A stretch of DNA of 34,107 bases, from contig JAKSBV010000027.1 of assembly GCA_022360955.1 (NCBI GenBank), positions 1 through 34,107 of the forward strand, written 5' to 3'. The notes under the pieces are model-generated. The model had not been told where the DNA came from and made no database searches. It worked only from the letters and a program-made list of their open reading frames with translations. Source of the stretch: Bacillota bacterium. GTDB taxonomy: Bacteria; Bacillota; Clostridia; SK-Y3. Shown piece after piece: positions 1,992-33,726 of the stretch. How positions within the stretch are numbered: position 1 is the stretch's first letter; every line of letters begins with the position of its first letter. Both the position numbers and the translations under genes were made by a program.

Positions 1992-2066
1992 AACGGGGAG
2001 ACAGTTGGAAAGTACTGAAAAATAGGGTTTTCAGTGCTTTCCAACCGTCTCCTCGTTCTATTTTTC
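1992..2066 (+). terminator. Very long near-perfect hairpin, likely terminator of the toxin-antitoxin operon
   Basis: Starting 8 bases after the toxin stop, bases 1992-2021 fold back on 2028-2057. Paired blocks are AACG/CGTT, GGAGAC/GTCTCC, TTGGAAAG/CTTTCCAA and ACTGAAAA/TTTTCAGT. There are two G-T wobbles, one 2x2 mismatch (AG/CC) and a 6-base loop (ATAGGG). About 28 pairs is much longer than a normal intrinsic terminator. A TATTTTTC tail follows and the padR -35 box comes immediately after, so it separates the two operons. Confidence 0.8.
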
Positions 2067-2116
2067 TTGACATATATAGATGGTCTATATATAATGATGT
2101 ATAGATCATCTATATA
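2067..2116 (+). promoter_or_regulatory. padR promoter with twin PadR-like operators
   Basis: A consensus promoter, TTGACA (2067-2072) and TATAAT (2090-2095) with a 17-bp spacer, is flanked by two 15-bp palindromes. These are TATAGATGGTCTATA at 2075-2089 in the spacer and TATAGATCATCTATA at 2100-2114 at the start point, with centres 25 bp apart. They extend into 17-bp arms that are also inverted repeats of each other (2073-2089 and 2100-2116). Two matching dyads bracketing the -10 box strongly suggest autorepression by the PadR protein encoded just downstream. The ribosome binding site AGGAGGG overlaps the end of the second arm. Confidence 0.85.
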
Positions 2117-2127
2117 GGAGGGATGTT

Positions 2128-2472
2128 ATGAAGATTGATAAAAGTCTGATGACCGGCAGTACAACGATGTTAATTTTAAAATTGTTAAGTATGGAGGATA
2201 TGTATGGCTATCAAATGATCGAACAGCTGGAAAAACGTTCGGAGAATGTTTTTACCCTTAAAGCAGGCACCTTGTATCCTCTGCTTCACAAGTTGGAGCA
2301 ACAAGGAATTTTGACTTCCTGTGAAGAACAATCGGAAAATCAAAAAATGCGAAAATATTATCGTATCACCGAAGAGGGCAGGAGAATTTTTGATGAAAAA
2401 CAAAAAGAGTGGTCTACGTATACCTCTGTCGTAAACAAAATATTGGGAGGGTTCGGTTTCAATGAAGGGTAA
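2128..2472 (+). CDS. PadR-family transcriptional regulator
   Basis: This is a 114-residue PadR_N-type winged helix protein. It begins KIDKSLMTGSTTMLILKLLS and continues through MYGYQMIEQLEKRSENVFTL, then AGTLYPLLHKLEQQGIL and YYRITEEGRR. These are the usual helix 1, recognition helix (GTLYPLLHKLE) and wing (RKYYRIT) elements. PadR proteins of this small class repress a linked membrane-protein gene and their own promoter, usually until an inducer or membrane stress relieves them. It is the first gene of a two-gene operon and overlaps the next gene by 11 bases. The twin dyads in its promoter are the probable binding sites. The inducer is unknown. Confidence 0.93.
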   Translation: MKIDKSLMTGSTTMLILKLLSMEDMYGYQMIEQLEKRSENVFTLKAGTLYPLLHKLEQQGILTSCEEQSENQKMRKYYRITEEGRRIFDEKQKEWSTYTSVVNKILGGFGFNEG

Positions 2473-3850
2473 TCATCATGAAAACACATTTCTTGACGCA
2501 GTATGCAGTCTAATCAAAGTGAAAGCAGTTCACAAAAACATTAGAAAAGAACTGAGAGCGCATATTGATGATCAAAAACAGGCCTATAGGGCAAAGGGCA
2601 TAAGTGAAGAAGAAGCTGCCGCCAAAGCAATTGAACAGATGGGAGACCCCTTGCAAATAGGCAAAGAACTTAACGAAGCACACAAGCCTTTAGTAGAATG
2701 GCCGGTATTGTTTACCATAGCGATATTAACCGTAGTCAGCGGGGTGATGCAATATGTTTTCACGATGGTGGGTACTCATTCGGGAGATGATCTGTTAATG
2801 TCTCTATTTAGAAACTTTTTATTATATGCTCCTATTGGTGTCCTCGTTTTTACCGTGGCTTACTTTTTTGACTATACGTTAATCAAAAAACATGCGTGGA
2901 AATGCTATATGGCATATCTTCTGGTTATGGCCGTCATTTTTGGCACATCACCTGCTATCAACGGTGCTTTAGCGGATGCAAAATATGCCGCGTTATTATT
3001 TGTCCCTGTATATGCCGGTTTGGTTTACGATTTTAGAAATAAAGGGTATTCTGGGATTATTTTTTCAGGGATTGTATTGGTGCCTGCTGTTGTTTTTACA
3101 ATCCTTATACCCTCTGCAAGCACTGTATTACTGATCATCTGTACCTGTTTGGCGATATTAACTTCTGCTATCAAAAAAGGCTATTTTTCTTGTAATATTA
3201 TAGTGGGCCTGGCGATTGTTTATGTACCTGCCATCATGACAATAATGTTGTTGCTGTTGACCCTGCGCTCCTATCAAACAGCGAGATTGGTGTCTATGTT
3301 AACCCAGTACGCCGACCCTATGGGTGCGGGATACTTACCTGAACTGCTAAGGACCATCGTTACAAACGCTAAGCCTTTCGGTGAAATCTTAATAGAGAAT
3401 CAACCGTTGGAGCAGTTGATGCCTGCGCCGCATGTCGACCTTTCATTTGCTTTTATGATAGGAAAGTTAGGCTATATTCCTGCTTTAGCAGCAGTGGCCT
3501 TAATATTTTTTCTTCTGTATAAATTGTACCGGTTTACCAAACATCAGCGAAATAGTTTCGGGCGATTAGTGTCATTAGGCGGTCTATGCATTATTTTTAT
3601 GCAAGTCATTTCTGCGCTGCTCTTCAACACAGGCGTATATACGATTGTTTTTGGCATTCCGCCGTTTTTATCCTATGGGGCTAAGCAGTTTGCGTTTACT
3701 ATGGGGCTTTTGGGGCTGATCCTTTCGGTCCGCAGGAGGACGAATATAGTGGAGGATACCTTCACAAAAACCCATCGCACCACATTTATAACTTTTGAAC
3801 AGGGTAAAATAATCATTGACAGAGGCAGCGGCCTCTCTAAAAAACCATAA
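2462..3850 (+). CDS. HAAS-domain / FtsW-RodA-like membrane protein
   Basis: This 462-residue protein joins two modules. Residues about 8-75 form a HAAS-type helical domain (KAVHKNIRKELRAHIDDQKQ..A.AKAIEQMGDPLQIGKELN), the module that commonly accompanies PadR-controlled membrane proteins. Residues about 78-430 are a polytopic membrane domain of about ten helices ending in an SEDS/FtsW-RodA pattern: PHVDLSFAFMIGKLGYIPA, SFGRLVSLGG, Q-V-I-S-A-L-L-F-N-T-G, and FLSYGAKQFAFTMGLLG. Asp326 in P-H-V-D aligns with the Asp of the FtsW/RodA motif (H-T-D-F-I) implicated in peptidoglycan polymerisation, so it may be active. Length is somewhat above the 370-400 usual for RodA/FtsW because of the HAAS extension. 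It is translationally coupled to padR. A substrate-inducible or stress-inducible cell-wall role is inference. Confidence 0.82.
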   Translation: MKGNHHENTFLDAVCSLIKVKAVHKNIRKELRAHIDDQKQAYRAKGISEEEAAAKAIEQMGDPLQIGKELNEAHKPLVEWPVLFTIAILTVVSGVMQYVFTMVGTHSGDDLLMSLFRNFLLYAPIGVLVFTVAYFFDYTLIKKHAWKCYMAYLLVMAVIFGTSPAINGALADAKYAALLFVPVYAGLVYDFRNKGYSGIIFSGIVLVPAVVFTILIPSASTVLLIICTCLAILTSAIKKGYFSCNIIVGLAIVYVPAIMTIMLLLLTLRSYQTARLVSMLTQYADPMGAGYLPELLRTIVTNAKPFGEILIENQPLEQLMPAPHVDLSFAFMIGKLGYIPALAAVALIFFLLYKLYRFTKHQRNSFGRLVSLGGLCIIFMQVISALLFNTGVYTIVFGIPPFLSYGAKQFAFTMGLLGLILSVRRRTNIVEDTFTKTHRTTFITFEQGKIIIDRGSGLSKKP

Positions 3851-19489: not shown

Positions 19490-19567
19490 GCGTAAAGACT
19501 TTTTTGAAATAATTATTCTTTGAGGTTTAAACAGGTAGAAAGCTGCTTTGAAAGGAGAGAGTATACG

Positions 19568-21421
19568 ATGGTGCCTCAAAATAGTACGGATACACGTATA
19601 AAATCCCTATTTACCCCCCTTGCATTCAAAAAACTTAGTCTGAAAAATAAATTACTCGTAACCTATCTCATCATGGCCGTCATTCCCATTATCATTATTG
19701 GCACGATCTCGTATATGAAATCCTCTCGTACCATCATTCGCCAGACCGAAGCATATGCGTCCCTGATGATTGGACAAATTAACAAAGACATTGATGCCTA
19801 TATTGACAAATTTGATCGGATCACCTATTTTGCCTATTCCAATATTGAAGTACAGCAAATTCTTGAGTCCAACCATTTGCAGCCCTATCGCCGGCAATTG
19901 GATAACCGCGATAAAATGCATCAATTCCTGCTTGGCATCTGCGTCATTGACCTGAATATTGACGGTGTTTATATTTATACTAAAGAGGGTGAATTGTTTC
20001 ACAAGAATATTTCGGAAGACAGCAGCATCCATGAACACTATACCTTTCAGGCCGAACCATGGTATGATGAAATCACGAAAGAAGATGCAAAAACCATGTT
20101 AATCCCCATTCACCTTGAGCAAAAGTATCATAATCAAAGAGGTGTGATGAACCTATCTTATATAAGGGCTATCAAAAATATCTATAACGGTCGTTATCTG
20201 GGCTTCATTCTCGTTGATATCAATAAAAAAGCAATTGATGAAATCATAGGGGAGACCAGTTCAAAGATGGATGGCAGGATACTGATTATTGATGAAAACG
20301 ACACAATTATATATGATTCGGAAGATCGTCTGTTTGGCATTCATTTTAAAAACAGCGGTTTAAGGTTCGAGAAAAATCTTAAGGATTACGATACAAGCTA
20401 TAGCAATATGAATGATAATCATATTATGCTAACCAATCGATCCAAGCAGACAGGGTGGACGGTAATGTTTATCACCCCTACTTCGCAGATCAGACAAAAG
20501 GTATATGAAATCGGAACCTTTACCATATTTGCTGCAATATTTTGCGCCCTCATATTTCTCATCATATCCACAGTGATCTCCTTGAGTATCAGCAGGCCTG
20601 TCAATAAGCTCAAGAAGGCTATTAGCTCAGTAGAAGGCGGAGACTTGGACGTCATTGCAGATATCGGCAGCAATGACGAGATAGGACAGCTCAGCAGGAG
20701 CTTTAATAAAATGGTATTGAATATAAAGGGTCTTGTCAAAGAAGTCTATGAAACCCAGCTGAAGAAGAAAGAAGCGGAGCTAAGCGCCTTGCAAAGTCAA
20801 ATAAACCCCCATTTTATGTACAATACTTTGGAAACCGTCAATATGATGGCCATTCTTGAGGGCAACTTTGAGATATCCGATGTATTAACCTCTTTTAGCA
20901 GTATTTTAAGATTTAATTTGGATAATAAAAGTCATATCATTTCCATTGAAAAAGAAATGAAATATGTTTCGGACTATTTAAACATACAAAAGGTGCGGTA
21001 TAAGAAAAAGTTCAATGTGCGCATAGAGATGGAGCCGGAGATAGAAAAATACCGGATATTGAAGCTGACCGTTCAGCCTTTGGTGGAAAATGCATTGTAC
21101 CATGGTATTACGGAGAAGGAAGGGACAGGGACCATAAACATTGTATTGAAGAAAGAAAAAGATAGGATCAGGATTGTTGTCGCCGATGACGGGATAGGCA
21201 TGACGGAGCAGCGCTTGGAAGATGTAACCCACTCCCTGGAGATGGAAGAGGCGTTAAGTAAAAAAGGCAGTATTGGCTTAAATAACATTAATGAAAGAAT
21301 CAAGCTTTATTTTGGCAGCCAATACGGATTGAAGATATCCGGTCAATACGGAGTCGGCACCAGATGTGAATTACTGATTCCTGCAAATCTTTTTGAAAAA
21401 GGAGATGAAATGCATGTATAG
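19568..21421 (+). CDS. YesM-type sensor histidine kinase
   Basis: Membrane kinase of the LytS/YesM class that senses an extracellular carbohydrate or a sugar-loaded binding protein and phosphorylates the AraC-type regulator next to it. From ATG 19568 it has 617 residues: transmembrane helix 1 (about 29-50), an extracytoplasmic Cache-like sensor region (about 52-300), helix 2 (about 303-327), HAMP (about 328-385, S-R-P-V-N-K-L-K..D-E-I-G-Q-L-S-R-S-F), His_kinase domain with QSQINPHFMYNTLETVNMMA and phospho-acceptor His415, and HATPase_c (QPLVENALYHGI; VADDGIGM). ATG 19568 is preferred because AAAGGAGAG precedes it; an in-frame TTG at 19520 lacks a site. It overlaps the regulator gene by 8 bases. 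Confidence 0.93.
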   Translation: MVPQNSTDTRIKSLFTPLAFKKLSLKNKLLVTYLIMAVIPIIIIGTISYMKSSRTIIRQTEAYASLMIGQINKDIDAYIDKFDRITYFAYSNIEVQQILESNHLQPYRRQLDNRDKMHQFLLGICVIDLNIDGVYIYTKEGELFHKNISEDSSIHEHYTFQAEPWYDEITKEDAKTMLIPIHLEQKYHNQRGVMNLSYIRAIKNIYNGRYLGFILVDINKKAIDEIIGETSSKMDGRILIIDENDTIIYDSEDRLFGIHFKNSGLRFEKNLKDYDTSYSNMNDNHIMLTNRSKQTGWTVMFITPTSQIRQKVYEIGTFTIFAAIFCALIFLIISTVISLSISRPVNKLKKAISSVEGGDLDVIADIGSNDEIGQLSRSFNKMVLNIKGLVKEVYETQLKKKEAELSALQSQINPHFMYNTLETVNMMAILEGNFEISDVLTSFSSILRFNLDNKSHIISIEKEMKYVSDYLNIQKVRYKKKFNVRIEMEPEIEKYRILKLTVQPLVENALYHGITEKEGTGTINIVLKKEKDRIRIVVADDGIGMTEQRLEDVTHSLEMEEALSKKGSIGLNNINERIKLYFGSQYGLKISGQYGVGTRCELLIPANLFEKGDEMHV

Positions 21422-22178
21422 ACTGGTCATTGTAGATGATGAAGAAATTATTAGAGAAGGCTTGGCCCGAATTGTCGCGTTAAGCGGTCTGGATTTTGAG
21501 GTGGTGGGAGAAGCGGAAAACGGAAAAACGGGGTTTGAACTGGTATGCCAATTAAGTCCTGAGATAGTGATCGCCGATGTAAAAATGCCTGTCATGAACG
21601 GTCTGGAGATGATTGACGAAATCAAACAGCTCAAATGCGATATTCGCTTTATTATCTTAAGTGCCTATACGGATTTTAATTATACGCGGCATGCCATTAA
21701 AAGCGGTGTGATAGATTATCTGATGAAGCCTGTGAATCGGCTGGAATTAATAGCGTTATTAAAAAAAATAAAGGAAGAGCTGGACCTGGAAAAAGTGCAA
21801 AGCGACGAGAGAAAGTGCGGGGATGTGCCGGAAGGAAAGATACGTACCGAAAGAAATGAGAGGAAAACAATTGAAATCGCCAAAAGGTATATTCAAGTAA
21901 GGTATTTTAAAGACATCAGTCTTGAAAGCGTTGCAAAGCATGTTCACATGAATAGCAATTATTTTAGTACGCTTTTTAAGAACGAAACAGGGGAAAACTT
22001 CATTGAATATGTAACCCGGGTACGGATTTACAATGCCAAAGAGCTGTTAAGAGATCCTAATCTAAAGATATACAAGGTTTGTACGATGGTCGGCTATTAC
22101 AGCCCTAAGCACTTTTCCAAATTGTTTAAGAATTTGGTGGGTGTTACACCCACGCAATACAGGGAAAAGATCATGTGA
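21414..22178 (+). CDS. AraC-type response regulator (YesN-like)
   Basis: This 254-residue regulator has an N-terminal receiver domain (about 1-120; acidic VDDEE, phospho-acceptor Asp55 in VIADVKMPVMNG, Lys in YLMKPVNR) and a C-terminal AraC/XylS double helix-turn-helix (about 150-254; SLESVAKHVHMNSNYFSTLF and VGYYSPKHFSKLFKNLVGVT). ATG at 21414 overlaps the kinase stop (ATGTATAG), with GGAG at 21401 giving proper spacing; the earlier TTG at 21393 precedes the ribosome binding site. It presumably activates the importer and hydrolase genes that follow. No direct repeats could be recognised confidently as its binding sites. Confidence 0.94.
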   Translation: MYRLVIVDDEEIIREGLARIVALSGLDFEVVGEAENGKTGFELVCQLSPEIVIADVKMPVMNGLEMIDEIKQLKCDIRFIILSAYTDFNYTRHAIKSGVIDYLMKPVNRLELIALLKKIKEELDLEKVQSDERKCGDVPEGKIRTERNERKTIEIAKRYIQVRYFKDISLESVAKHVHMNSNYFSTLFKNETGENFIEYVTRVRIYNAKELLRDPNLKIYKVCTMVGYYSPKHFSKLFKNLVGVTPTQYREKIM

Positions 22179-22232
22179 AAAAAGAGCACCCTTTCTAAAT
22201 TTTATGCCGTTTCACGACTACAAGAGACGAGA

Positions 22233-22238
22233 TATAAT
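22233..22238 (+). promoter_or_regulatory. TATAAT -10 of the importer operon, poor -35
   Basis: TATAAT lies 34 bases before the lipoprotein ATG, but the -35 position holds TTTCAC or weaker. A good -10 without a -35 is what an activator-dependent promoter looks like, which agrees with the AraC-type regulator encoded directly upstream. Confidence 0.45.
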
Positions 22239-22271
22239 AAATATAAATTGAAATTTGAGGAGGAGAGAAAG

Positions 22272-23627
22272 ATGTTTAAAAAGAGCCTGTCAATATTATT
22301 GGTCTTAGTCGTGATGATCAGCCTAGTGCTGGTCGGATGCGGGCAAACGACGGAACAAAACGACGGAGGAGAAACGGACAACGCAAAACAGGCAGAGGAC
22401 AAACAGGCAGAAGACAAGCAGCCGGAAAAGGCTAAAATCACAATGACCAGTTGGTTGGAGGTAGAACAATCGGTTGAAGCTATTTTTAAAGAAATGATTG
22501 ATGCTTTTAGAAGTGCGAACCCGGATATAGAGGTAGAAACAATAGGGCTGCCTTTTAACCAGTACAAGGATCAACTTCTGGTTATGTCAACATCGGGAAA
22601 TGCACCGGATGTCGTCATGGGAAATTCTCAGATGATGGTCGGTTTCAATGGGGCCGGCATTCTGGCGCCTTTAGAAGATTTAATCAGTAAAGAAAAACAG
22701 GCGGATATTTTTGATAATAATCTTGCCGGCGGTACATTTGACGGTAAATTGGTTGCTATACCATGGATTACGCATCCCATCGGGTTGTTTTATAATAAGG
22801 AGTTATTTGAAAAGGCGGGATTAGATCCGGAGAAGGCGCCTGAAACATGGGATGAAATGGTGCAAGCCGCAAAGAAAGTAGCGGCATTAAAACAGGACAA
22901 AGACGGCAATAGGATTTATGGTATCGGACACTCCATCGGAAAGGTTGCACATGCAGGTTCCGTATTTAACGGCATCATCTATTCTCATGGCGGGCATTTT
23001 CTGGATGCAGAGGGCAAGGTTGATTTTGATAATGCCGGTACCCGGGAAGCCATGCAATATATAAAAGACATGGTGGACGCAGGCGTTATGCCTGCCGGTG
23101 TGAACCAAAAGGAAATCAGGGGACTTTTTGCAAACGAGCAATTGGGCATCATGTTTGACGGTGATATGGGCAGAGCCGTATTTAGAAAATTAAGCGGTAA
23201 GGGCAAAGAGTTTGATAAGATCATGGGTGTGGCCCTGATTCCGACCGGTAAGACGGGCAAGAGTGAAACGGTGTATACGGAGCATCAGCTGGGTATTGCG
23301 AAAGAATCTAACGATCAGGAAGCTGCGGCTAAACTGATAGAACATTTGTTGAGCAAAGAGATGATTGTAAGGTACCACGAAACAAATTCCGTATTGGCGC
23401 CAAGCAAGTCTATCGGAAAGCTGCCCGAAATGAACGAAGATTATTATATGGAAGTATTTAATAAGCAATTAGAAAGGGCAAGACCCCTGCCTGCTACGCA
23501 TCCGATGTTTGACAATGCAATGCTTGAAGTGACGAAGGCACTTGAGAGGGTATCCGTAGGCAAAGAAGACGTAGATCCTGTTGTAAAAGAAACACAGCAG
23601 AAGATTGAGTCCCTCTATTCAAAATAA
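22272..23627 (+). CDS. Sugar ABC transporter substrate-binding lipoprotein
   Basis: Family 1 extracellular solute-binding protein that captures an oligosaccharide at the membrane surface and delivers it to the two permeases. From ATG 22272 (GAGGAGGAGAG directly upstream) it has 451 residues, a lipoprotein signal (FKKSLSILLVLVVMISLVLV then G-C, Cys23), a charged linker rich in Q-A-E-D-K, and a typical SBP_bac_1 body: PFNQYKDQLLVMSTSGNAPD, WITHPIGLFYNKELFEKAGL, PETWDEMVQAAKKV, and IMFDGDMGRAVF. Sugar specificity cannot be read from this. It is separated from the permease genes by a hairpin. Confidence 0.94.
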   Translation: MFKKSLSILLVLVVMISLVLVGCGQTTEQNDGGETDNAKQAEDKQAEDKQPEKAKITMTSWLEVEQSVEAIFKEMIDAFRSANPDIEVETIGLPFNQYKDQLLVMSTSGNAPDVVMGNSQMMVGFNGAGILAPLEDLISKEKQADIFDNNLAGGTFDGKLVAIPWITHPIGLFYNKELFEKAGLDPEKAPETWDEMVQAAKKVAALKQDKDGNRIYGIGHSIGKVAHAGSVFNGIIYSHGGHFLDAEGKVDFDNAGTREAMQYIKDMVDAGVMPAGVNQKEIRGLFANEQLGIMFDGDMGRAVFRKLSGKGKEFDKIMGVALIPTGKTGKSETVYTEHQLGIAKESNDQEAAAKLIEHLLSKEMIVRYHETNSVLAPSKSIGKLPEMNEDYYMEVFNKQLERARPLPATHPMFDNAMLEVTKALERVSVGKEDVDPVVKETQQKIESLYSK

Positions 23628-23643
23628 TCATTGATGAATTAAA

Positions 23644-23680
23644 AAAACTGGTGATAGGTAAAAGTATCACCAGTTTTAAT
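23644..23680 (+). terminator. Hairpin between binding-protein and permease genes
   Basis: AAAACTGGTGATA (23644-23656) pairs perfectly with TATCACCAGTTTT (23665-23677) around an 8-base loop, then AATAAA. This partial terminator or mRNA-stabilising hairpin would give more binding protein than permease, a known pattern in binding-protein-dependent import operons. Confidence 0.75.
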
Positions 23681-23707
23681 AAAATATAACAAATAGGTGT
23701 GATGAAT

Positions 23708-24646
23708 ATGAAGCTAGCATCCGTATTGAATAACCGAATCAATGGGAACAGATATCGTTCGAAGGTGATGAAAGACAAAGCGTTTGCAGTAAGCCTGGTG
23801 GTTCCTGCCTTAATAATGCTTATTCTTACCATTATCATTCCCGTTATAAGTGTTGTGCGCATGAGTTTTTTTGAGTATAATTTGCTGCATATGGATAAGG
23901 CCCCATGGAATAATTTTGATAATTATATCAGTGTATTAAAAGATAAGGAATTTTATTTGTCCTTTCTCAGAACCATTACATACGTCTTTTCTACGGTTGG
24001 CCTGGCGTTCATAACAGGTTTGATCTTTGCGCTGCTTTTGAATACGGAAATAAAGGGAAAAAACCTGTTTAGAGGCGCATTGTTTTTACCGTGGACGATG
24101 CCCCAGGTCATTATCGCCATTGTGTGGATGTGGATGCTCCAAACAGATTACGGCATTATGAATTATGTCTTAAAGAGTCTGCATCTGATCCAAGAGAATA
24201 TTAACTGGGTAGGGGACCCCAAAACGGCGATGCTGTCCGTTATTATCGCTACGGTATGGAAGCAGATGTCCATCATGATGGTAATAATACTGGCAGGCCT
24301 TCAAACAGTGCCCGCAGAATTGAAAGAAGCGGCATTGATGGACGGTGCAAATGCATTTCAAAGGTTTTGGAATGTGATCCTGCCTTCAATCATGAGTGTG
24401 ATCAAAACGGTGACCCTTACGCAGATTATTATAAATTTCCAGATGTTCGGGCTGTTTTACACCATGACGGGAGGTGGTCCGGTGGATGCCACTTCCGTAT
24501 TATCGATCTATACCCATGAGGCCGCTTTTATGAGCTTTAACATGGGTAAAGGGGCAGCGGTAGGTGTCACATGGCTGTTGTTCTTGATAGGCTTCGCCGC
24601 ACTTTACAACAAAGTTTTGAGCCGGAAAGAAATTTATGCGGATTGA
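23708..24646 (+). CDS. Sugar ABC transporter permease, MalF/UgpA type
   Basis: Integral membrane subunit with six predicted helices. Its first helix region (AVSLVVPALIMLILTIIIPV) and the EAA loop EAALMDGANAFQRFWNVILP, which docks the ATPase, identify a carbohydrate uptake transporter-1 permease. The start is uncertain: GTG 23699, ATG 23702 and ATG 23708 are in frame. AGGTG (23695-23699) has a normal gap only to 23708 (312 residues). Family length is about 290-315. It pairs with the next gene. Confidence 0.92.
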   Translation: MKLASVLNNRINGNRYRSKVMKDKAFAVSLVVPALIMLILTIIIPVISVVRMSFFEYNLLHMDKAPWNNFDNYISVLKDKEFYLSFLRTITYVFSTVGLAFITGLIFALLLNTEIKGKNLFRGALFLPWTMPQVIIAIVWMWMLQTDYGIMNYVLKSLHLIQENINWVGDPKTAMLSVIIATVWKQMSIMMVIILAGLQTVPAELKEAALMDGANAFQRFWNVILPSIMSVIKTVTLTQIIINFQMFGLFYTMTGGGPVDATSVLSIYTHEAAFMSFNMGKGAAVGVTWLLFLIGFAALYNKVLSRKEIYAD

Positions 24647-24673
24647 TTTCGGAGAAAGGGGCTGAATAACAGC

Positions 24674-25501
24674 ATGAAACAAAAAAATACCGTTTTATCT
24701 TATGTGTTGATCATTGCGTTTTGCATATTGTTTTTATTTCCGATTTATTGGATGCTTTCTACATCGTTTAAAACCAATGATGTTATTATGAAATTGCCTC
24801 CCCAATGGATTCCCAGGGCACCCACCTTACAAAATTATCTGAATGTATTTGGAGATAATAAATTTCTCACTTTTTATAAAAACTCTATCATTGTTTCGTT
24901 AAGCACTACCGTTACAAGCCTGATACTGGCTGTACTGGCCAGTTATTCGTTTTCAAGGTTTAAATTTTTCGGCAGTAATGCTATTCAGATGGTGTTCTTG
25001 TCCACGCAGATGTTTCCGGCGATGGTATTATTAATTGCCATGTATACGATGTACAGGCAATTAAATTTAATCAATACGTATACCGCGCTGGTGCTGGCGT
25101 GTACAACCAAGGCGCTGCCCCTGAGCGTATGGGTCTTAAAAGGCTTTTATGACGGTATTCCGAGGGATTTGGAAGAGGCGGCTTCCATTGATGGGTGCGG
25201 ACGGTACGAAACCTTGTTCAAGGTTATTCTGCCGTTGATTAAGCCCGGTGCGCTTGCCGTAGCTATTTATGCTTTTCTGGTCTCCTGGGATGACTTTTTG
25301 TGGGGCCTGACCCTTGTGAATAAATTGGAGATGAGGACCTTAACACCGGGGATTTCCCTCACTTATCTGGGTGAATTCTCCTATGATTGGGCAAAAGTAA
25401 TGACGGCAGCAGTAGGGGCCTCGGTGCCGGTTCTCACCGCTTTCATATTTATGCAGAAATATATGATCAGCGGATTAACGGTGGGTGCGGTAAAAGGGTG
25501 A
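24674..25501 (+). CDS. Sugar ABC transporter permease, MalG/UgpE type
   Basis: Second membrane subunit, 275 residues with six helices and the typical start YVLIIAFCILFLFPIYWMLS plus SFKTNDVIMKLP. The EAA loop is LEEAASIDGCGRYETLFKVI. The C-terminal Q-K-Y-M-I-S-G-L-T-V-G-A-V-K-G is a hallmark of this subunit. AAAGGGG lies 12 bases upstream. No ATP-binding subunit gene follows, so a shared MsmX-type ATPase elsewhere in the genome is probably used. Confidence 0.94.
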   Translation: MKQKNTVLSYVLIIAFCILFLFPIYWMLSTSFKTNDVIMKLPPQWIPRAPTLQNYLNVFGDNKFLTFYKNSIIVSLSTTVTSLILAVLASYSFSRFKFFGSNAIQMVFLSTQMFPAMVLLIAMYTMYRQLNLINTYTALVLACTTKALPLSVWVLKGFYDGIPRDLEEAASIDGCGRYETLFKVILPLIKPGALAVAIYAFLVSWDDFLWGLTLVNKLEMRTLTPGISLTYLGEFSYDWAKVMTAAVGASVPVLTAFIFMQKYMISGLTVGAVKG

Positions 25502-25547
25502 GATATTGGATGCATTGACAACTTGTTAATTGAAGGGAGAGGACATT

Positions 25548-28500
25548 ATGGGAAAACTCAAATCATTCATGGCCGTTATGGCATGTATGGCGTTATTATT
25601 GTCAAGCTTTTCGGTAAAAGCTGCATTTGTTGTGCCTGACCCCGGTGCGTGTATGGGACATTGGCTTCTCAATGACGACCCTTCGGACGGGGTGCTGGAC
25701 AGCAGTGGTTCAAACCATCCAAGCAGTGTGGAAAGTGCAGGGGGTGTTGCCTTAGACAATACCAAGGGTGTTAATGACGGCAGCGGTATGACAGCCAGTT
25801 ATGCGTTTAATGGAGCAGGCCGCATTAACTTGATTCCCAATGCGCCTATACCGAAAGATTTTAGCATGTCTATGTGGGTCCGTACCACGTCTACAGGTAC
25901 GACACAAAATTTGATGGGGATGAATGGTAAAACTAAGGGATGGTTGTACCGGAAAATAGATAAAAGATTTGTGATTGCAAATCTGAGTACGGCGGTTACC
26001 TCGGAAACTTTCATTGAGGAAAACAAATGGTATTTTATCGGTTTTTCTCATGATGCAAGCAATCGCTATACCATATATCTTCAAGCAGAGGATGCGCCGC
26101 AGCCTGAGGTGATTACGGGCAATGGGGCAATGAAACAGCATATTTTTACCGATTTGCTTTTGGGTACCAAGCATGAAAGTACCCCCGGGTGGATAGGAAA
26201 TGTGGATGATATAAGAATGTACACCGGTCTTGCATTTAACAGGGCAACCTTTGCATCCTTATATCATACCACTCATCCCAACGCCGAACCGATATCCGAT
26301 GAGCATCCTCCGACTTGGCCGCAAGACGCATCTATTTCAACACAGATAGTGGATGCAGCCTCTGTAAGACTTTCATGGCCTTCTGCAATTGATGACATAG
26401 GTATATTACAATACAATATATACAAGAGATTAGCTCATGAACCGGTATCGGCAAACAAACTTGCAGCTATCGCCGGCGGCTCGGAGGTGTCTGCCATTGT
26501 CACAGCACTTGCCGCAGATACGGAATACATATTCGCGGTTGAAGCGGTAGACAAGGGATTAAACGCAGCTATAGGCCCTAGCGTGACTTTCAAAACACCG
26601 AAGATAGTTGAAAAGTATACACCGGTTGAGGTAAACACAGTGTTAAAATCCGGTACCAGAAAGCTCATGAGTCTTGACGGTATATATAAGTTTAAGGATG
26701 ATCCCGGCGATGTGGGCTCTGGCCGGCAATGGTATTTAGACAGCTTCGATTTTGGTACGGACACTATTGCTGTGCCCGGTAATATGATGACGGCAGGCTA
26801 TAGAGATAATATGGCAAATGCTGCTTCTGTAAAAAGTGCCAAAGATCGATTTGCAGCCCTAGAAAAAAATCCGTATTCTCCGGCATGGTATAAGAGGAAT
26901 TTTGAAGTACCGCAAGACTTTGATACCACGAAGCCGATATTTATTAAATTCGGCGGTGTTATGCCCGCCTGTGAGGTCTGGGTTAATGGGAACTATTTGG
27001 GCTATCATGAGGGAGCCACCGTGCCCTTTGCTTACAAGGTGGACGATTTATTGACCGATGGTACAAATACGCTTGTGGTCAAAATAATCGATGATATCAC
27101 TGCGCGTATTATGGCCGGCGGCTACAGCAGAATGAATTTCTTCTCAGGCATATTCAGAAGTGTGGAGCTTGAACAGACAGAAGACGTAAGAACGCTGCGC
27201 TTTCTCATGGAGCCGGATATTGATCGTGACAGCGTGATCGTGCATGTGTGGGTTAAAAATCATAGTGATGTCCCAAAAAGCATTGGGATCAAGTCGGATA
27301 TTTTTGATGCAAAAGGCCTGCCATTTGCTGCAGGACAATTGGAAGGTCAAACGGTTTCAGCCAATGGAGAAGAAAAGTTCACTTTTTCCGTACCGATGCA
27401 GAATGCACGACTATGGTCTACCGATGACCCCTATTTGTATAGTGCAAATATTCAAATATTAGAAAGCGATACCTTAAAGGATTCGTTAAAATCCCATTTC
27501 GGCATGAGAAAGCTGCATGTTGCGGACGGCAAGATATATGTTAATAACAAGCCCTTTTATTTGAGAGGCGCAGGATACTTATGTGTGAATGCACACACCC
27601 TCTCGCCGAATGTAGACAGGGAACAGATTAAGGCAGAGCTCCAACAGATTAAGGATTACGGCTATAATCATCTAAGGCTTCACAGCACAACGCCGCCGCC
27701 GGAATTCCTTGAGGCTGCCGATGAAGTAGGTATATTCTTACAGACAGAGGCAGCGGTACAGGGCACCTATACAAGGATTAAACAATATGCCCAAACTCAA
27801 AAAGCGTATATCTGGACGAATCTTGTGATGCGGGATCTAAATAATCCCTCGCTCATGATAAGATGTATGGGGAATGAAGGCCATTATAACAGGGCAGGCA
27901 ATGTTACCGAGGATGGGATCACACAGAATCTTATGGATTGGGGGTATGCCAAAGCGAAAGAAATAGATCCCACAAGATTTGTTTTAGCTACGGCGCATTT
28001 TGAAAGCGCTAAATCTATTAATGCGTCCGATGTCATTGAAACAAACAAAGATTATCCCGATTCAAACGGTAAGCCCTATTACAGGCATGAATTCGGACAT
28101 TTCTCCGCATATCCCGATATTACATTGGAGGCAAAATACCTTAACAGTGCATTGTATCCGTGGCAGATTCAAAGAACCAAGCAAAGTGCGGAGGAAAACG
28201 GATTAACCGAGCTGCTTCCCACCTTTAGAGAAAAATCTTTGGCCAGTCAAAAGGATAGTACCAAATACGGCTTTGAATGGTTTAGACGTGAAAAGCTTGA
28301 TGGAGACGGATATTCCCATTGGCTTGCGCAAGATAATGTTCAGCTGCAGATGGGTGTGTTTGACGATTTCTTCGATCCGAAAACCAATGGATTTACAGCT
28401 CGGGAAATGCAGCAGTTTAATGGAGATACGGTCGTACTGCCGAAATCTACAATCTACGAAAGAGTCTTTGAAAGCGGGGGTACATTTACCGAAGCATTAC

Positions 28501-29447
28501 TGATTCATCATACGAATCAAGAAGCCTTGCAAGACGGCACACTGAACTGGATGTTTAAGAATATTGAGACAGGCGCAGTGTTAGATACGGGAACCTTTGA
28601 CAAGTTATCCGTTGCCGGAAACGGCAGATTGGATGCGGGTATTGTTACTGTGATGCTTCCGGTTGAGGTCAATCCCGCAAGGTATGAGCTATCCGTATCA
28701 TTGGTATATGACGGAAAAACCGTAACCAATCAATGGATTTACTGGGTATATCCTGTACAGACTGTCAGCGCGGACCAAGCAACTCATCGTATCATAGTTG
28801 ATATGGATAATAGTGTACTAAAAGATCAAATTCTATCCCATTATCCCTTTGCTGTGACAGGAACAACGCCGCAAGCGGCAGATATCCTTATCACTGATAA
28901 AAAAACAGCGGCTGTAAATCATGTTGATAGCGGCGGGAAGGTATTGGTGATGGCAGGAAATATTTCGCAGCCGGCCTCTCAGAAGCCGATTTTTCCTAGT
29001 CAGACCAATGATTGGGGGGATCGTTCAAAGCGGGTGCCCGAAAAGTGGGTTACCTATTTTACCATATCCGGATATTACTACGGGAATTTCTGGGGAAGTG
29101 TCATAGATAAGACCCATCCTATTACAAAAAACCTTGCAAGCGACGGGTATATAGATTGGGGTCTTGCACATTTGTACCATGATGAAAAGATAGGCAGTAA
29201 AAACTACTGCTATGCGGTGAGAATAGATGATCCCCAGTGGTCAAGTTATAGAATCAATCCGCTTATCAGAGCGATTGACTACTATGGCGAAAACGATCCC
29301 CTTGCCTTTATGTTTGAGGCATCAAAAAGCAATGGGGTAATGCTGGTCAGCGGTTTATATTATGATTTAGACAGGCATATGAATGGTCTGTATATGTTTG
29401 ACCAATCTCTGCGGTATTTGCTGAGCAGTGATATGGCAAAACAGTAA
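25548..29447 (+). CDS. Secreted multidomain GH2-type glycoside hydrolase
   Basis: A 1299-residue exported enzyme. Signal peptide MGKLKSFMAVMACMALLLSS...VKA-AF; LamG/concanavalin-like module (about 37-235; CMGHWLLNDDPSDGVLDSSG, SMSMWVRTT, IGNVDDIRMYTG); fibronectin-III-like module (about 248-345); then the GH2 sugar-binding jelly roll (WYKRNFEVP, GGVMPACEVWVNGNYLGYHE), Ig-like domain (MRKLHVADGKIYVNNKPFYL) and TIM barrel. Catalytic candidates are Glu777 in M-G-N-E-G (acid/base) and Glu848 in R-H-E-F-G (nucleophile). Residues about 950-1060 look Ig-like. Residues about 1079-1299 form a further domain with a GATase-like look (VDSGGKVLVMAGN). ATG 25548 follows GGGAGAGG. The enzyme might be a beta-galactosidase or beta-glucuronidase; substrate not determined. 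Confidence 0.88.
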   Translation: MGKLKSFMAVMACMALLLSSFSVKAAFVVPDPGACMGHWLLNDDPSDGVLDSSGSNHPSSVESAGGVALDNTKGVNDGSGMTASYAFNGAGRINLIPNAPIPKDFSMSMWVRTTSTGTTQNLMGMNGKTKGWLYRKIDKRFVIANLSTAVTSETFIEENKWYFIGFSHDASNRYTIYLQAEDAPQPEVITGNGAMKQHIFTDLLLGTKHESTPGWIGNVDDIRMYTGLAFNRATFASLYHTTHPNAEPISDEHPPTWPQDASISTQIVDAASVRLSWPSAIDDIGILQYNIYKRLAHEPVSANKLAAIAGGSEVSAIVTALAADTEYIFAVEAVDKGLNAAIGPSVTFKTPKIVEKYTPVEVNTVLKSGTRKLMSLDGIYKFKDDPGDVGSGRQWYLDSFDFGTDTIAVPGNMMTAGYRDNMANAASVKSAKDRFAALEKNPYSPAWYKRNFEVPQDFDTTKPIFIKFGGVMPACEVWVNGNYLGYHEGATVPFAYKVDDLLTDGTNTLVVKIIDDITARIMAGGYSRMNFFSGIFRSVELEQTEDVRTLRFLMEPDIDRDSVIVHVWVKNHSDVPKSIGIKSDIFDAKGLPFAAGQLEGQTVSANGEEKFTFSVPMQNARLWSTDDPYLYSANIQILESDTLKDSLKSHFGMRKLHVADGKIYVNNKPFYLRGAGYLCVNAHTLSPNVDREQIKAELQQIKDYGYNHLRLHSTTPPPEFLEAADEVGIFLQTEAAVQGTYTRIKQYAQTQKAYIWTNLVMRDLNNPSLMIRCMGNEGHYNRAGNVTEDGITQNLMDWGYAKAKEIDPTRFVLATAHFESAKSINASDVIETNKDYPDSNGKPYYRHEFGHFSAYPDITLEAKYLNSALYPWQIQRTKQSAEENGLTELLPTFREKSLASQKDSTKYGFEWFRREKLDGDGYSHWLAQDNVQLQMGVFDDFFDPKTNGFTAREMQQFNGDTVVLPKSTIYERVFESGGTFTEALLIHHTNQEALQDGTLNWMFKNIETGAVLDTGTFDKLSVAGNGRLDAGIVTVMLPVEVNPARYELSVSLVYDGKTVTNQWIYWVYPVQTVSADQATHRIIVDMDNSVLKDQILSHYPFAVTGTTPQAADILITDKKTAAVNHVDSGGKVLVMAGNISQPASQKPIFPSQTNDWGDRSKRVPEKWVTYFTISGYYYGNFWGSVIDKTHPITKNLASDGYIDWGLAHLYHDEKIGSKNYCYAVRIDDPQWSSYRINPLIRAIDYYGENDPLAFMFEASKSNGVMLVSGLYYDLDRHMNGLYMFDQSLRYLLSSDMAKQ

Positions 29448-29485
29448 CCCTCATCTATCTTTGCCTTGGGGGTGCATTTAGTGTA

Positions 29486-29688
29486 GGTGAAGAAAATTAT
29501 GGAAATGACCTTATGTGCCAGAGGTCGGATATCAGAGGGCGGAAGTCGGAATATAACCAAACAGGGGCCAAAGTAATCAGCGACAAGCGTATCGTAAATG
29601 GTGGATGGTCCATTCTCAACCCTCATCTCTCAGCCCTCAACTACTTTTTAGCCTTGGAATACCAGTTGTTGGAATAATTTTCTTCACC
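29486..29688 (-). repeat. F2 interspersed repeat, copy c, with exact 15-bp terminal inverted repeats
   Basis: GGTGAAGAAAATTAT (29486-29500) and ATAATTTTCTTCACC (29674-29688) are exact reverse complements bounding a 203-bp element. Inside, in inverse orientation to copies a and b, are TCAGAGGGCGGAAGTCGG, AACCAAACAGGGGC, CAACCCTCATCTCTCAGCCC and GCCTTGGAATACCAGTTGTT. It contains no ORF. It lies 39 bases after the GH2-type gene. No target-site duplication is obvious. Confidence 0.85.
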
Positions 29689-29725
29689 CAGAATTTCTAC
29701 ACCCTTGCCTTGGATATCGGTTGCA

Positions 29726-29824
29726 GATACCGGACTTTAAAATCAAATGTATACTTGACCAAAAAAACGCAGGACAGTCATTCCGGTTCAAATGTAGTCT
29801 TAGGGTATAGTTGGGTGCTTTATC
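29726..29824 (+). repeat. F1 interspersed palindromic repeat, copy 5
   Basis: Starts GATACCGGACTTTAAAATCA, has TTGACCAAAAAAACGCAG and GGTTCAAATGTAGTCTTAGG, and ends near CTTTATC. It lies 37 bp to the right of F2 copy c in the same relative order as at 18103-18242. Confidence 0.75.
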
Positions 29825-30010
29825 GCAACTAGTTTCTTCAACCGCAATTTAAAAAGTTTGGTGTAAAGAATTAAGAAAACTCACAATATTACAGGGGCAA
29901 TTCGTTCAAGAATATTTCGAATTATCATTCCTTATATCATTTCTGCATATGTATATTAATATATTCAATTCAAAAGAATCAGGCCTTAAATTATTCACTT
30001 ATCATATAAA

Positions 30011-30103
30011 TATCATGCTTTAAAAATGAGTTAATATTTAAACAAAAAACATAGAAGTATCGTTATTTGTTCAAATGTATTTTTGGGCTGTAATTTGTTA
30101 TAT
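30011..30103 (+). repeat. F1 interspersed palindromic repeat, copy 6 (diverged)
   Basis: TATCATGCTTTAAAAATGAG, AAACAAAAAACATAGAAGTA and GTTATTTGTTCAAATGTATT, then GGGCTG, follow the F1 order. The end is worn down. Between copies 5 and 6 (29825-30010) I see only AT-rich sequence without genes. Confidence 0.72.
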
Positions 30104-30189
30104 TTACCGCCCTTTTGCCGGGTATACTTTGTGAGGTCTTAAAATGACAAGAAATCCACATAAGCAGGAGATCAATGAAAGGCAATTAG

Positions 30190-30250
30190 TGAGACTCTCA
30201 GGCGTAAAGCCTTGAGATATAAGCGGCTGCAAAGAAATGCAATCGCTAAA
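30190..30250 (+). ncRNA. Structured leader of the GH-A gene (two hairpins), class unknown
   Basis: TCTCAGGC (30196-30203) pairs with GCC-T-TGAGA (30209-30217) around GTAAA with one bulged T. Four bases later AGCG/CGCT and TGCA/TGCA (30222-30247) stack across a 2x2 internal loop with a 6-base loop. The pair lies 29 bases before the start codon, and the ribosome binding site TAAGGAGGG lies outside them. It resembles a riboswitch-like or RNA-stability leader, but I cannot match it to a named class. Confidence 0.4.
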
Positions 30251-30276
30251 CTAATTTTTATATAAGGAGGGCAAGT

Positions 30277-33200
30277 ATGAAGATCAGAAAATGGACCAAA
30301 AGGATTGCGGTATTGATGGTGATGTTAATCCTTTTCTCACCGTTCTGCGCCGGATTAATGACACCGATCCAAGCAAGTGAAATATCCATAAGCCGTCGGG
30401 TAACGGATGAGAGGACAGTTGGTCAAGCTGCTGATTTATTGGCGGCCGGTGAGGGTACGGCAAAAGGTGAACCGGCAGCCACCGGTGTTGAGGACGGCAG
30501 GATATTGGCCGATTCGGAAGCTGAGCGTTCCTATGAGCCATTTGCGGTGAATCCTCCGCCGGGAGAAGTGACATCCTTGACAGCCACTCCCGGAGATAGC
30601 CAGGCCGGTATTCATTGGATTGACCCTGTCGATGAAGATTTAAAGCTAATTAAAATAGCAGAGGAAACAGGCGCCGTGGCAGATGCGGTGTATGCACAGC
30701 CCGGACAGCAGGCTGTTACCATAACCGGGCTGACCAATGGCATGCTGTACACATTCCGGGTGACAACCATTGACACTTCCGATAACGAGTCGGAGGGCGT
30801 AACGATTGGTGTAATGCCTGCCCCTGACAGTTCGGTTGAAAACGGGCTTATTGGCGCATGGGATTTTGAAAATGTGAGCGGGAACACAGTGCCCGATGAG
30901 TCGGTCAACAGCAATGATGGTGTCCTTCGCGGAAAGGCAGGGGTTGTTGCTACGGAAATGGGGCAATCCTTAAACCTTACCGGTGAAAAAGGTACGTTTA
31001 TGTACACGCCGTTGAACGTTAATACGGCGACGCAAGACATGACGGTCTCCATCTGGTATAAGGTTGACGCTTCTTTATTTGATGGGCAGACTGCACCTTC
31101 AGGCAACCTCATGCTCTTCCAGCAAGAAGGAAAAGGCAGATCCCTGCTGTACGTGCTTCCGAACCAGCATATGGCCTCGTTCATCGGCGGAAGCACAATA
31201 AGATCTAAAAAGCCTATCGGCACGGGAAGCTGGCAGCATGTTGTGATGACGATTGACAGTGCCGCAACTAAGCTGGCTATGTATTTTGACGGTGTGAAGG
31301 ACAGCGAGGTTAAATCCTCTAATTTTGCAAATGAGCCGAATGCGGGATTTAGAATAGGGGACCATAAATCTAGCCATAATCTAGCATTTAACGGTTTAGT
31401 GGATCAAGTAAAGATCTATAACCGTGTACTTTCCGATCAAGAAATCAAAGCGCTGTTTGACCACGGCATTACGGAGGCGGTGGCCAAAGAAAAAGCGACC
31501 ACAGCCATCGGAGAATGGGAAGAACTCAAGCGCACCTATCCAAACGTGAACGCTGCGCTTTACGGTGAACTTGAAGCGTTGGCGGCGGAAATGGGTGAAT
31601 ACCTGCAAGGCCCGAACTTTACCGTCGGCGGATGTATGGCCTATGTGGAGCGATTTAATGCACTTCTTGCCGATTACAGATGCTATGTGACATTTGCTGA
31701 TGTGCTCTCGGAGGCTGAAAACGTATATAACAGGGCGAAGCATATTGAGACCTATGTTGACACCCAGGATTTTCCGACACAGCTTTGTGCAGAATTTAAA
31801 GCGTTGATTGACCAAGGGAAAGCCGTTAACTTGAACGATACCGATGTGCAGACCATTCGTACAATGACCGATACACTGATTGCTAAACAAAATGAATTGG
31901 ATGCTGCAATAACATTGTTGAATATTGTTTTCGTGGACGTTGATATCAACAATGTGATAAACACGACGAGCAAGGATAATTTCGGTTCAAACCACAGGTA
32001 CGGAGGTCACGGCTATGGCATGTGGGATCCGGAGAACAGGCAGGCCTACCCGGAATTCGATGCACTTTACAGGGAAGCCGGATTAGGGTCCCTCAGGTAT
32101 CCCGGCGGCACAATCGCTAACCTATTTGAATGGAAGCGTTCCATTGGCCCTGTTGAGCAGAGAAAGCGGACGATACACGGCAAGCCCTATGGCAATCCGC
32201 CGCAGGATACGGATTTTGGTCTGGATGAGGCGGTGAGATATGCTCAATCGGTAGATTCAACCTTGGTATATGTCTACAATATAGGCAATGGCAGTGCCGC
32301 AGATGCAGCCGACCTCATAGAATATCTCAATGCAGAGGCAGGGACCAATCCTAACGGCGGGATTGCTTGGGCAGATGTCAGAGCGGCAAACGGGCATCCG
32401 GAACCCTATAATGTGTTTAATTTTGAAATCGGTAATGAGGTTTATCTGAGTTATCAAAGGTATTGGATAAACGGAAGCGGTGAAGGCAGCTATCAATACA
32501 GGTATGTAAACGGAGGAGAATTTTCCTTCACAAAACAAAATGTAGTGGCTGAGGAGGACTGGAGAAAGGAAACCGCATTGAGTGACGGTACGGCCAATCA
32601 GGAAAAATACATCCAGTATGTACCCCTGAAGCTGGGGACTGCGGAAGTATTTGTAGATGATGTGAAGTGGGATAGGGTTGACAGTCTTGAGGGGCATGGT
32701 GCTGCCAATGTATATACACTGAGCTACGAAACAGGTAAAATTACATTTGGAGATGGCGTCAACGGCAATATTCCTTTGACAGGAGCAAAGATTACGGCCA
32801 GCTATACCTGCATCAAAGACGGTTTTAAGGATTACGTGACCGCCATGAAGGCAGTAGACCCGCGTGTCAAGGTTTACAGCTGCTTACACGACAACACATT
32901 TTTTAAGGAAATGGGTAATTTTAAATATGCCGGCGTTGCTATACACCCCTATGGTGTAAATAACGGCAAGGCAAACATGGAAGAATACCACGATCATATT
33001 ATGACAACAGCCGAACAAAGAGTAAACCCGGTGAGAAATTTGATAAACAAGGTGAAATCCATAGACAGCAATATGAATGTTATTGTAAGTGAATACGGCA
33101 TTTTGGGGGGATCTTCACAATACAGAAAATATTGTAATTCCACCGGCGACGCACTGTATGTTGCCAAAACCTTGATGAGGTACTCGAAGCTTCCCATTCC

Positions 33201-33726
33201 CTATGCCAATAAGCATTGCACCATCGATACGGTGGGCAGGAGAGATACGGTGGGTGTCGGTGAAATGGCGCTGATCCAGCGCTATGCGGATGAAAACGAT
33301 AACTTGATTGATTTCGTTCTATCACCAACGGCCCTTGTATTGCAAATGTTCAGCAAAAACTTTGGCAGGCATACGCTTAAGACCTTTGTTGCCAATAATC
33401 CTGCCATGAATGGCAATCCGTCGGTGAAAAAACTGGATGTGTTGTCGTCTAAAGATGAAACCGGCAATATGTATGTTATGATTGCCAACACGGACCGACT
33501 CGATGATGTGACTGCGGTTATTTCCCTTGAGGGTATGACAGTGGCGAATACGGCCCAGGTTGTTACGCTGGAAAGCCCGGCATTTAATTCACAGAACACA
33601 CCGCAGAGTCCTCATACGGTTAAGCTGGTAGAAAGCAGTATCGGGGGACTGGAAGGGAAAAGTGAGATTATATACACATTCCCCAAACATTCGGTGGTAG
33701 TGATTAAGCTTTCTCCAAAAGCTTAA
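30277..33726 (+). CDS. Secreted multidomain clan GH-A glycoside hydrolase, GH51-like
   Basis: A 1149-residue exported protein. Signal peptide (MKIRKWTKRIAVLMVMLILF...IQA-SE), linker, fibronectin-III-like module (about 90-185; TSLTATPGDSQAGIHWIDP), LamG (about 190-395; LIGAWDFENVSGNTVPDESV, DQVKIYNRVLSDQEI), a helical FIVAR-like region (about 400-545), then a TIM barrel: LGSLRYPGGTIANLFEWKRS, Glu721 in F-E-I-G-N-E as likely acid/base, and Glu939 in I-V-S-E-Y-G as likely nucleophile. The R-x-P-G-G-T motif resembles alpha-L-arabinofuranosidases of GH51, but the nucleophile motif S-E-Y-G differs from the usual D-E-W, so the exact family is unsettled. A beta-rich insert (about 735-848) interrupts the barrel. 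ATG follows AAGGAGGG. No cell-wall anchor is seen, so it is probably released. Confidence 0.85.
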   Translation: MKIRKWTKRIAVLMVMLILFSPFCAGLMTPIQASEISISRRVTDERTVGQAADLLAAGEGTAKGEPAATGVEDGRILADSEAERSYEPFAVNPPPGEVTSLTATPGDSQAGIHWIDPVDEDLKLIKIAEETGAVADAVYAQPGQQAVTITGLTNGMLYTFRVTTIDTSDNESEGVTIGVMPAPDSSVENGLIGAWDFENVSGNTVPDESVNSNDGVLRGKAGVVATEMGQSLNLTGEKGTFMYTPLNVNTATQDMTVSIWYKVDASLFDGQTAPSGNLMLFQQEGKGRSLLYVLPNQHMASFIGGSTIRSKKPIGTGSWQHVVMTIDSAATKLAMYFDGVKDSEVKSSNFANEPNAGFRIGDHKSSHNLAFNGLVDQVKIYNRVLSDQEIKALFDHGITEAVAKEKATTAIGEWEELKRTYPNVNAALYGELEALAAEMGEYLQGPNFTVGGCMAYVERFNALLADYRCYVTFADVLSEAENVYNRAKHIETYVDTQDFPTQLCAEFKALIDQGKAVNLNDTDVQTIRTMTDTLIAKQNELDAAITLLNIVFVDVDINNVINTTSKDNFGSNHRYGGHGYGMWDPENRQAYPEFDALYREAGLGSLRYPGGTIANLFEWKRSIGPVEQRKRTIHGKPYGNPPQDTDFGLDEAVRYAQSVDSTLVYVYNIGNGSAADAADLIEYLNAEAGTNPNGGIAWADVRAANGHPEPYNVFNFEIGNEVYLSYQRYWINGSGEGSYQYRYVNGGEFSFTKQNVVAEEDWRKETALSDGTANQEKYIQYVPLKLGTAEVFVDDVKWDRVDSLEGHGAANVYTLSYETGKITFGDGVNGNIPLTGAKITASYTCIKDGFKDYVTAMKAVDPRVKVYSCLHDNTFFKEMGNFKYAGVAIHPYGVNNGKANMEEYHDHIMTTAEQRVNPVRNLINKVKSIDSNMNVIVSEYGILGGSSQYRKYCNSTGDALYVAKTLMRYSKLPIPYANKHCTIDTVGRRDTVGVGEMALIQRYADENDNLIDFVLSPTALVLQMFSKNFGRHTLKTFVANNPAMNGNPSVKKLDVLSSKDETGNMYVMIANTDRLDDVTAVISLEGMTVANTAQVVTLESPAFNSQNTPQSPHTVKLVESSIGGLEGKSEIIYTFPKHSVVVIKLSPKA

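Follow-up and report, generated by a model that had tools for sequence, protein, structure and literature searches.

The operon and its surroundings

The window analysed here, a stretch of 34,107 nucleotides from a clostridial genome, contains a two-gene operon on the plus strand. A sequence-only reading had described it as a PadR-controlled operon encoding a HAAS domain fused to an FtsW/RodA-like (SEDS) protein, and the open reading frames, domain scans, promoter and near-palindromes bear this out. The first gene, padR (2128-2472), encodes a PadR-family transcriptional repressor of 114 aa (PF03551, 7e-25). The second (2462-3850) overlaps it by 11 bp in the ORF list and encodes a membrane protein of 462 aa, hereafter HAAS-SEDS. 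Residues 83-427 of this protein (2708-3742) matched FTSW_RODA_SPOVE (PF01098, 1.5e-21; 77 bits against a cut-off of 26.4). Residues 17-71 (2510-2674) matched the HAAS-type 'permease prefix domain 1' profile NF038403 (2.7e-14; 52.7 bits, cut-off 30). The Pfam HAAS model gave 18.5 bits with the window protein, under its cut-off of 27.

Upstream of padR lies a sigma-A promoter (2067-2095, plus strand) with TTGACA at 2067-2072, a spacer of 17 nt and TATAAT at 2090-2095, which agrees with the consensus at 12 of 12 positions. A ribosome-binding site, GGAGGG, was read from the sequence at 2117-2122. Two near-palindromes, to which no strand applies, are putative PadR operators: O1 (TATAGATGGTCTATA, 2075-2089) lies inside the -35/-10 spacer, and O2 (TATAGATCATCTATA, 2100-2114) follows the -10 box, ahead of the ribosome-binding site.

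A neighbouring toxin-antitoxin pair had also been pointed out. The pair is real and consists of overlapping genes for a Phd/YefM antitoxin (1414-1677) and a ParE/RelE toxin (1667-1984), but its linkage to the operon is probably incidental. A terminator-like hairpin followed by U's (about 1992-2057, plus strand; MFE -45.9 kcal/mol, z -11) lies 3' of the pair, which is therefore probably a separate unit, and an operon link was rejected. Downstream, the gene order is glmU-prs-pth-mfd-...-spoVT-...-mazG-yabP-yabQ, where glmU, spoVT, mazG, yabP and yabQ were identified by profile, and prs, pth and mfd were named from their translations. This order is common in Firmicutes. Further along, the window carries a glycan-use cluster (19520-33726) with an AraC-type two-component system, a sugar ABC transporter, a large GH2-like protein and an arabinofuranosidase-like protein.

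An AlphaFold2 model of HAAS-SEDS, computed from an 81-sequence alignment, reached a pLDDT of 92 and a pTM of 0.90. The model predicts a SEDS fold for residues 71-430, which superpose on solved FtsW and RodA structures (VIA Z 26-33); the next match after the SEDS structures was WaaL (Z 16.2). When the protein was aligned to E. coli RodA, Asp326 (codon 3437-3439), Arg275 (3284-3286) and Pro321 corresponded to Asp262, Arg210 and Pro257. In RodA, Asp262 and Pro257 are catalytic, and Arg210, a pyrophosphate contact, lies in cavity A (PMC10449877). The SEDS-like fold and the active-site position of Asp326, both predicted before, thus hold for the full protein, and the idea of a synthase is not refuted by the structure.

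The combination of PadR with HAAS-SEDS, and the idea that it forms a system, have already been published (PMC6624303, PMC11237479). Ravi and colleagues (2024) named HAAS and suggested that HAAS and PadR form a dyad which can take the place of a two-component system; their paper explicitly lists a fusion of FtsW/RodA/SpoVE to HAAS, with CAC98500.1 as the example, and credits it to a Listeria paper, PMC6624303 (PMC11237479). The window operon resembles that dyad in having an N-terminal HAAS on a multi-TM protein and an adjoining stand-alone PadR. To the part of that account available to us, the present analysis adds an operator, the loss of SEDS residues and a variant with an ECF sigma factor.

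Family survey, operators and the link to PadR

The survey of the family covered 163 distinct HAAS-SEDS proteins, with 27 SEDS proteins for comparison, taken from GTDB contigs, whole-genome searches and fetched stretches. Since 77 of the 163 were retrieved via an MGDP peptide pattern, conservation is inflated there; the remaining 86 sequences gave similar figures, except for D62 and P63. HAAS-SEDS proteins formed a single clade in the FastTree phylogeny (support 95), to which one of the comparison proteins, L198, also belongs. At this locus (2000-3595), PadR and the operator region are intact, and the HAAS coding part has been destroyed, apparently by a short repeated stretch.

The neighbourhood seen in the window recurs throughout the family, with a PadR gene adjoining HAAS-SEDS in 158 of the 163 relatives. 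For two of the five exceptions the contig ends beside the gene, another two are tandem paralogues preceded by a single PadR gene, and the last has no PadR in the stretch read. Pairs of tandem HAAS-SEDS paralogues with a single PadR were observed in L091 (2974-5953) and L070 (1244-4371). A strong HAAS-SEDS match was found in 50 of 300 sampled genomes of Bacilli (17%) and, by a hand count from the search table, in about 35 of 398 sampled genomes of the window's phylum (~9%).

The new element is a conserved operator, TATAGATNATCTATA, which fills the -35/-10 spacer of the consensus sigma-A promoter and has a second copy 25 bp downstream. In the accessible parts of the related literature, no prior description of TATAGATNATCTATA was found. 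With up to two mismatches, it occurred in 68 of 116 related padR upstream regions (1.4 expected from shuffles), and over all loci 117 of 125 such sites fell within 160 bp upstream of padR. The same spacer register was found in 53 of the 116 related promoters, and 63 of the upstream regions contained two or more sites with up to three mismatches. Loci sharing the operator are mostly clostridial; in the sample of Bacilli, it was present in only 2 of 34.

A perfect copy of the operator occurs only once in the window's genome, as O2, and the sites listed included no other pair. Operator-like sites numbered 66, against 37 for a reversed-pattern control. A wider regulon was considered and rejected: the one-mismatch sites, read on the contigs other than C398 and C460, occur singly, either at the start of a coding sequence or within a gene. 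Judging from the operators, tight autoregulation of the operon is plausible. Two further observations concern the same genome. L213 and L214 (G000, contigs C135 and C145) encode repeated Cys/Pro-rich coat-like proteins with the motif CPPAAPICADCGPPKHPCPQGVIFNCCTGAG, and their start regions show one operator-like site, probably by chance. A second PadR-HAAS pair, L035 (G000, contig C126; 842-1862, minus strand), has no SEDS domain and no TATAGATNATCTATA operator; its HAAS gene is followed by a gene for a DUF4825 protein.

In Listeria monocytogenes, the sigC operon encodes SigC, the PadR protein LstR and Lmo0421, and is repressed about 140-fold by LstR (Hauf et al. 2019, PMC6624303). This operon includes an ECF sigma gene and a SigC-dependent promoter, whereas the window operon lacks such a gene and carries two palindromes at a sigma-A promoter of perfect consensus. 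An ECF query taken from L005 found almost nothing, but a second one identified 16 Bacillales loci in which an ECF sigma gene immediately precedes those for PadR and HAAS-SEDS (L057, L089, L098, L106, L114, L140, L142, L143, L156, L162, L166, L171, L177, L179, L193 and L204), indicating that the arrangement of the Listeria sigC operon extends more widely in Bacillales. In 14 of the 16, CGTCTA, an ECF-like -10 element, was read by eye upstream of the sigma gene.

Conservation within the membrane protein is highest in HAAS, where the mean column entropy is 2.04 bits compared to 2.72 bits for the SEDS part. E30, H34, G61 and G67 are conserved in 162-163 of the 163 relatives, and in 85-86 of the 86 found without the MGDP pattern. 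We also compared divergence in 138 non-redundant pairs of PadR and HAAS-SEDS. PadR distance correlated with HAAS distance at r 0.66 and, on average, at 0.50 with SEDS distance from random samples of 70 columns, values that are confounded by relatedness; HAAS exceeded the SEDS samples in 200 of 200 draws. This indirect comparison agrees with the earlier suggestion that HAAS connects the two proteins, and from these alignments HAAS is likely the link between the membrane protein and PadR.

The same results bear on another explanation, according to which the ligand is a small amphipathic drug bound by PadR itself, as in known PadRs, HAAS-SEDS is only an induced protective effector, and the role of HAAS may be to tether or titrate PadR with no signal passed on. 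Many PadR structures are related to the window PadR, as this explanation would have it, but the conservation of HAAS and the way PadR divergence tracks it suggest more than a passive partner, and we consider the explanation unlikely.

Active-site residues of the HAAS-SEDS clade

The window protein shares with canonical RodA, FtsW and SpoVE the fold and the Asp, Arg and Pro positions of cavity A. It differs from them in its N-terminal HAAS, its PadR operon and its placement in a separate clade, and also in the absence of QPxExxK, a motif of PL2 and TM4, and a shortened PL2 segment (28 residues vs 36-40 in canonical SEDS), with about ten residues of this catalytic loop missing. Its Asp326 corresponds to the catalytic Asp of PL4. 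RodA Trp102, Gln111, Glu114 and Lys117 are placed around loop PL2 and cavity B (PMC10449877). At the SEDS position, QPxExxK was found in none of the 163 HAAS-SEDS proteins but in 26 of the 27 comparison proteins, the lone exception being the clade member L198. Three regular-expression matches within the clade were discarded as chance occurrences at protein termini. The equivalent of Trp102, an invariant residue of canonical SEDS polymerases, is kept in 27 of 163 and is absent in the window protein, and the second Glu (E270 position) is lost in the clade.

On the other side of the active site, the Arg210 equivalent is Arg in 149 of 163 (rank 8 of 340 SEDS columns), and Gly273 is kept in all 163. 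At the Asp262 position, 108 of the 163 keep D, while E and N occur in 18 each, S in 8 and P in 7; 41 relatives have no D within four residues of this position. The tree implies at least 34 gains or losses of D, yet the column is still among the better conserved (rank 34 of 340). The window protein retains Asp326, Arg275 and Pro321; L040, among its eight nearest relatives, has Asn at the catalytic Asp position.

In E. coli FtsW, the changes W138A, Q147E and D297A abolished septal synthesis and left lipid II binding intact (PMC8765783). Since these mutants bind lipid II without synthesis, the pattern of loss in HAAS-SEDS fits a non-polymerising binder. RodA E114A and K117N caused only modest impairment in vitro; in SpoVE, the effect was severe in vivo (PMC10449877). 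Taken over the clade, HAAS-SEDS lost most of the parts needed for wall building, and sensing or binding of a precursor is more likely than wall making.

The retained donor side could also belong to an active glycosyltransferase or ligase that uses another acceptor, as WaaL does for O-antigen. The intact Arg275, Pro321 and Asp326 of the window protein and the WaaL fold match would suit such an enzyme. We nevertheless think it quite improbable, given that a third of the clade, L040 included, has another residue (E, N, S, P and others) in place of the catalytic Asp, and that no glycopolymer gene cluster recurs among the neighbours of HAAS-SEDS in the relatives.

The inducible peptidoglycan synthase of the sequence-only reading, a back-up polymerase for times when the housekeeping SEDS is blocked, could draw on the fold, on the intact Asp326, Arg275 and Pro321, on the position of the operon directly upstream of glmU (in the relatives, the neighbouring genes showed no evident glmU cluster) and on the conditional possibility retained by Hauf et al. 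(PMC6624303), but is very unlikely because QPxExxK is absent throughout the clade, PL2 is shortened in this protein and the Asp is not conserved in the clade, and because overproduced Lmo0421 failed to replace FtsW1 or the RodAs (PMC6624303). A class B PBP matched near HAAS-SEDS at 1 of 161 loci, which counts weakly against a polymerase and is not discriminating, as canonical loci gave only 2 of 27.

A putative envelope sensor and its implications

The reading that we prefer, to which we give an even chance, is that a degenerate SEDS domain binds an undecaprenyl-linked ligand and, via HAAS, lifts the repression that PadR exerts on their common operon. The operon would then encode a one-component envelope system of the HAAS-PadR type, with a probably non-polymerising SEDS as its membrane part. 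PadR dimers on the two palindromes, one in the -35/-10 spacer and the other in the start region, would hold the operon off. The SEDS domain has kept its fold and the Arg that would hold the pyrophosphate of the ligand, and has lost the side for the second substrate. When lipid II or Und-PP accumulates or is withheld, for example by antibiotics, the cytoplasmic HAAS would change, and the changed HAAS would relieve repression by PadR. In Listeria, several antibiotics gave no induction of the three PadR promoters tested (PMC6624303). As the operon's own operator pair is the only good one in the genome among the sites listed, the HAAS-SEDS protein itself would have to be the effector, presumably acting within an autogenous loop as a membrane protein for ligand binding or shielding. 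Beyond the computed anatomy, fold, motif loss, operators and linkage, we infer ligand binding, the contact between HAAS and PadR, the direction of signalling and a benefit to the cell.

Against this reading speak the odd design of a sensor that targets only itself, the Asp326, Arg275 and Pro321 retained by the window protein, the still fairly well conserved Asp column, the modest effects of RodA E114A and K117N in vitro and the lack of induction by antibiotics in Listeria. For the family as a whole, we tentatively propose, at somewhat less than an even chance, that the large HAAS-SEDS clade consists of pseudo-SEDS receptors, in which the polymerase function was lost, the undecaprenyl-pyrophosphate side was kept and HAAS provides the coupling to a PadR switch, so that a wall synthase would have become a direct sensor of its own substrate.

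With its operator and promoter defined, the operon offers a simple reporter for an inducer search, and the known roles of SEDS residues make the receptor idea directly testable. The clade also advises caution, in that not every match to FtsW/RodA is a wall polymerase. If HAAS-SEDS proteins are indeed pseudoenzyme receptors, these bacteria would sense the status of lipid II by means of a converted synthase.
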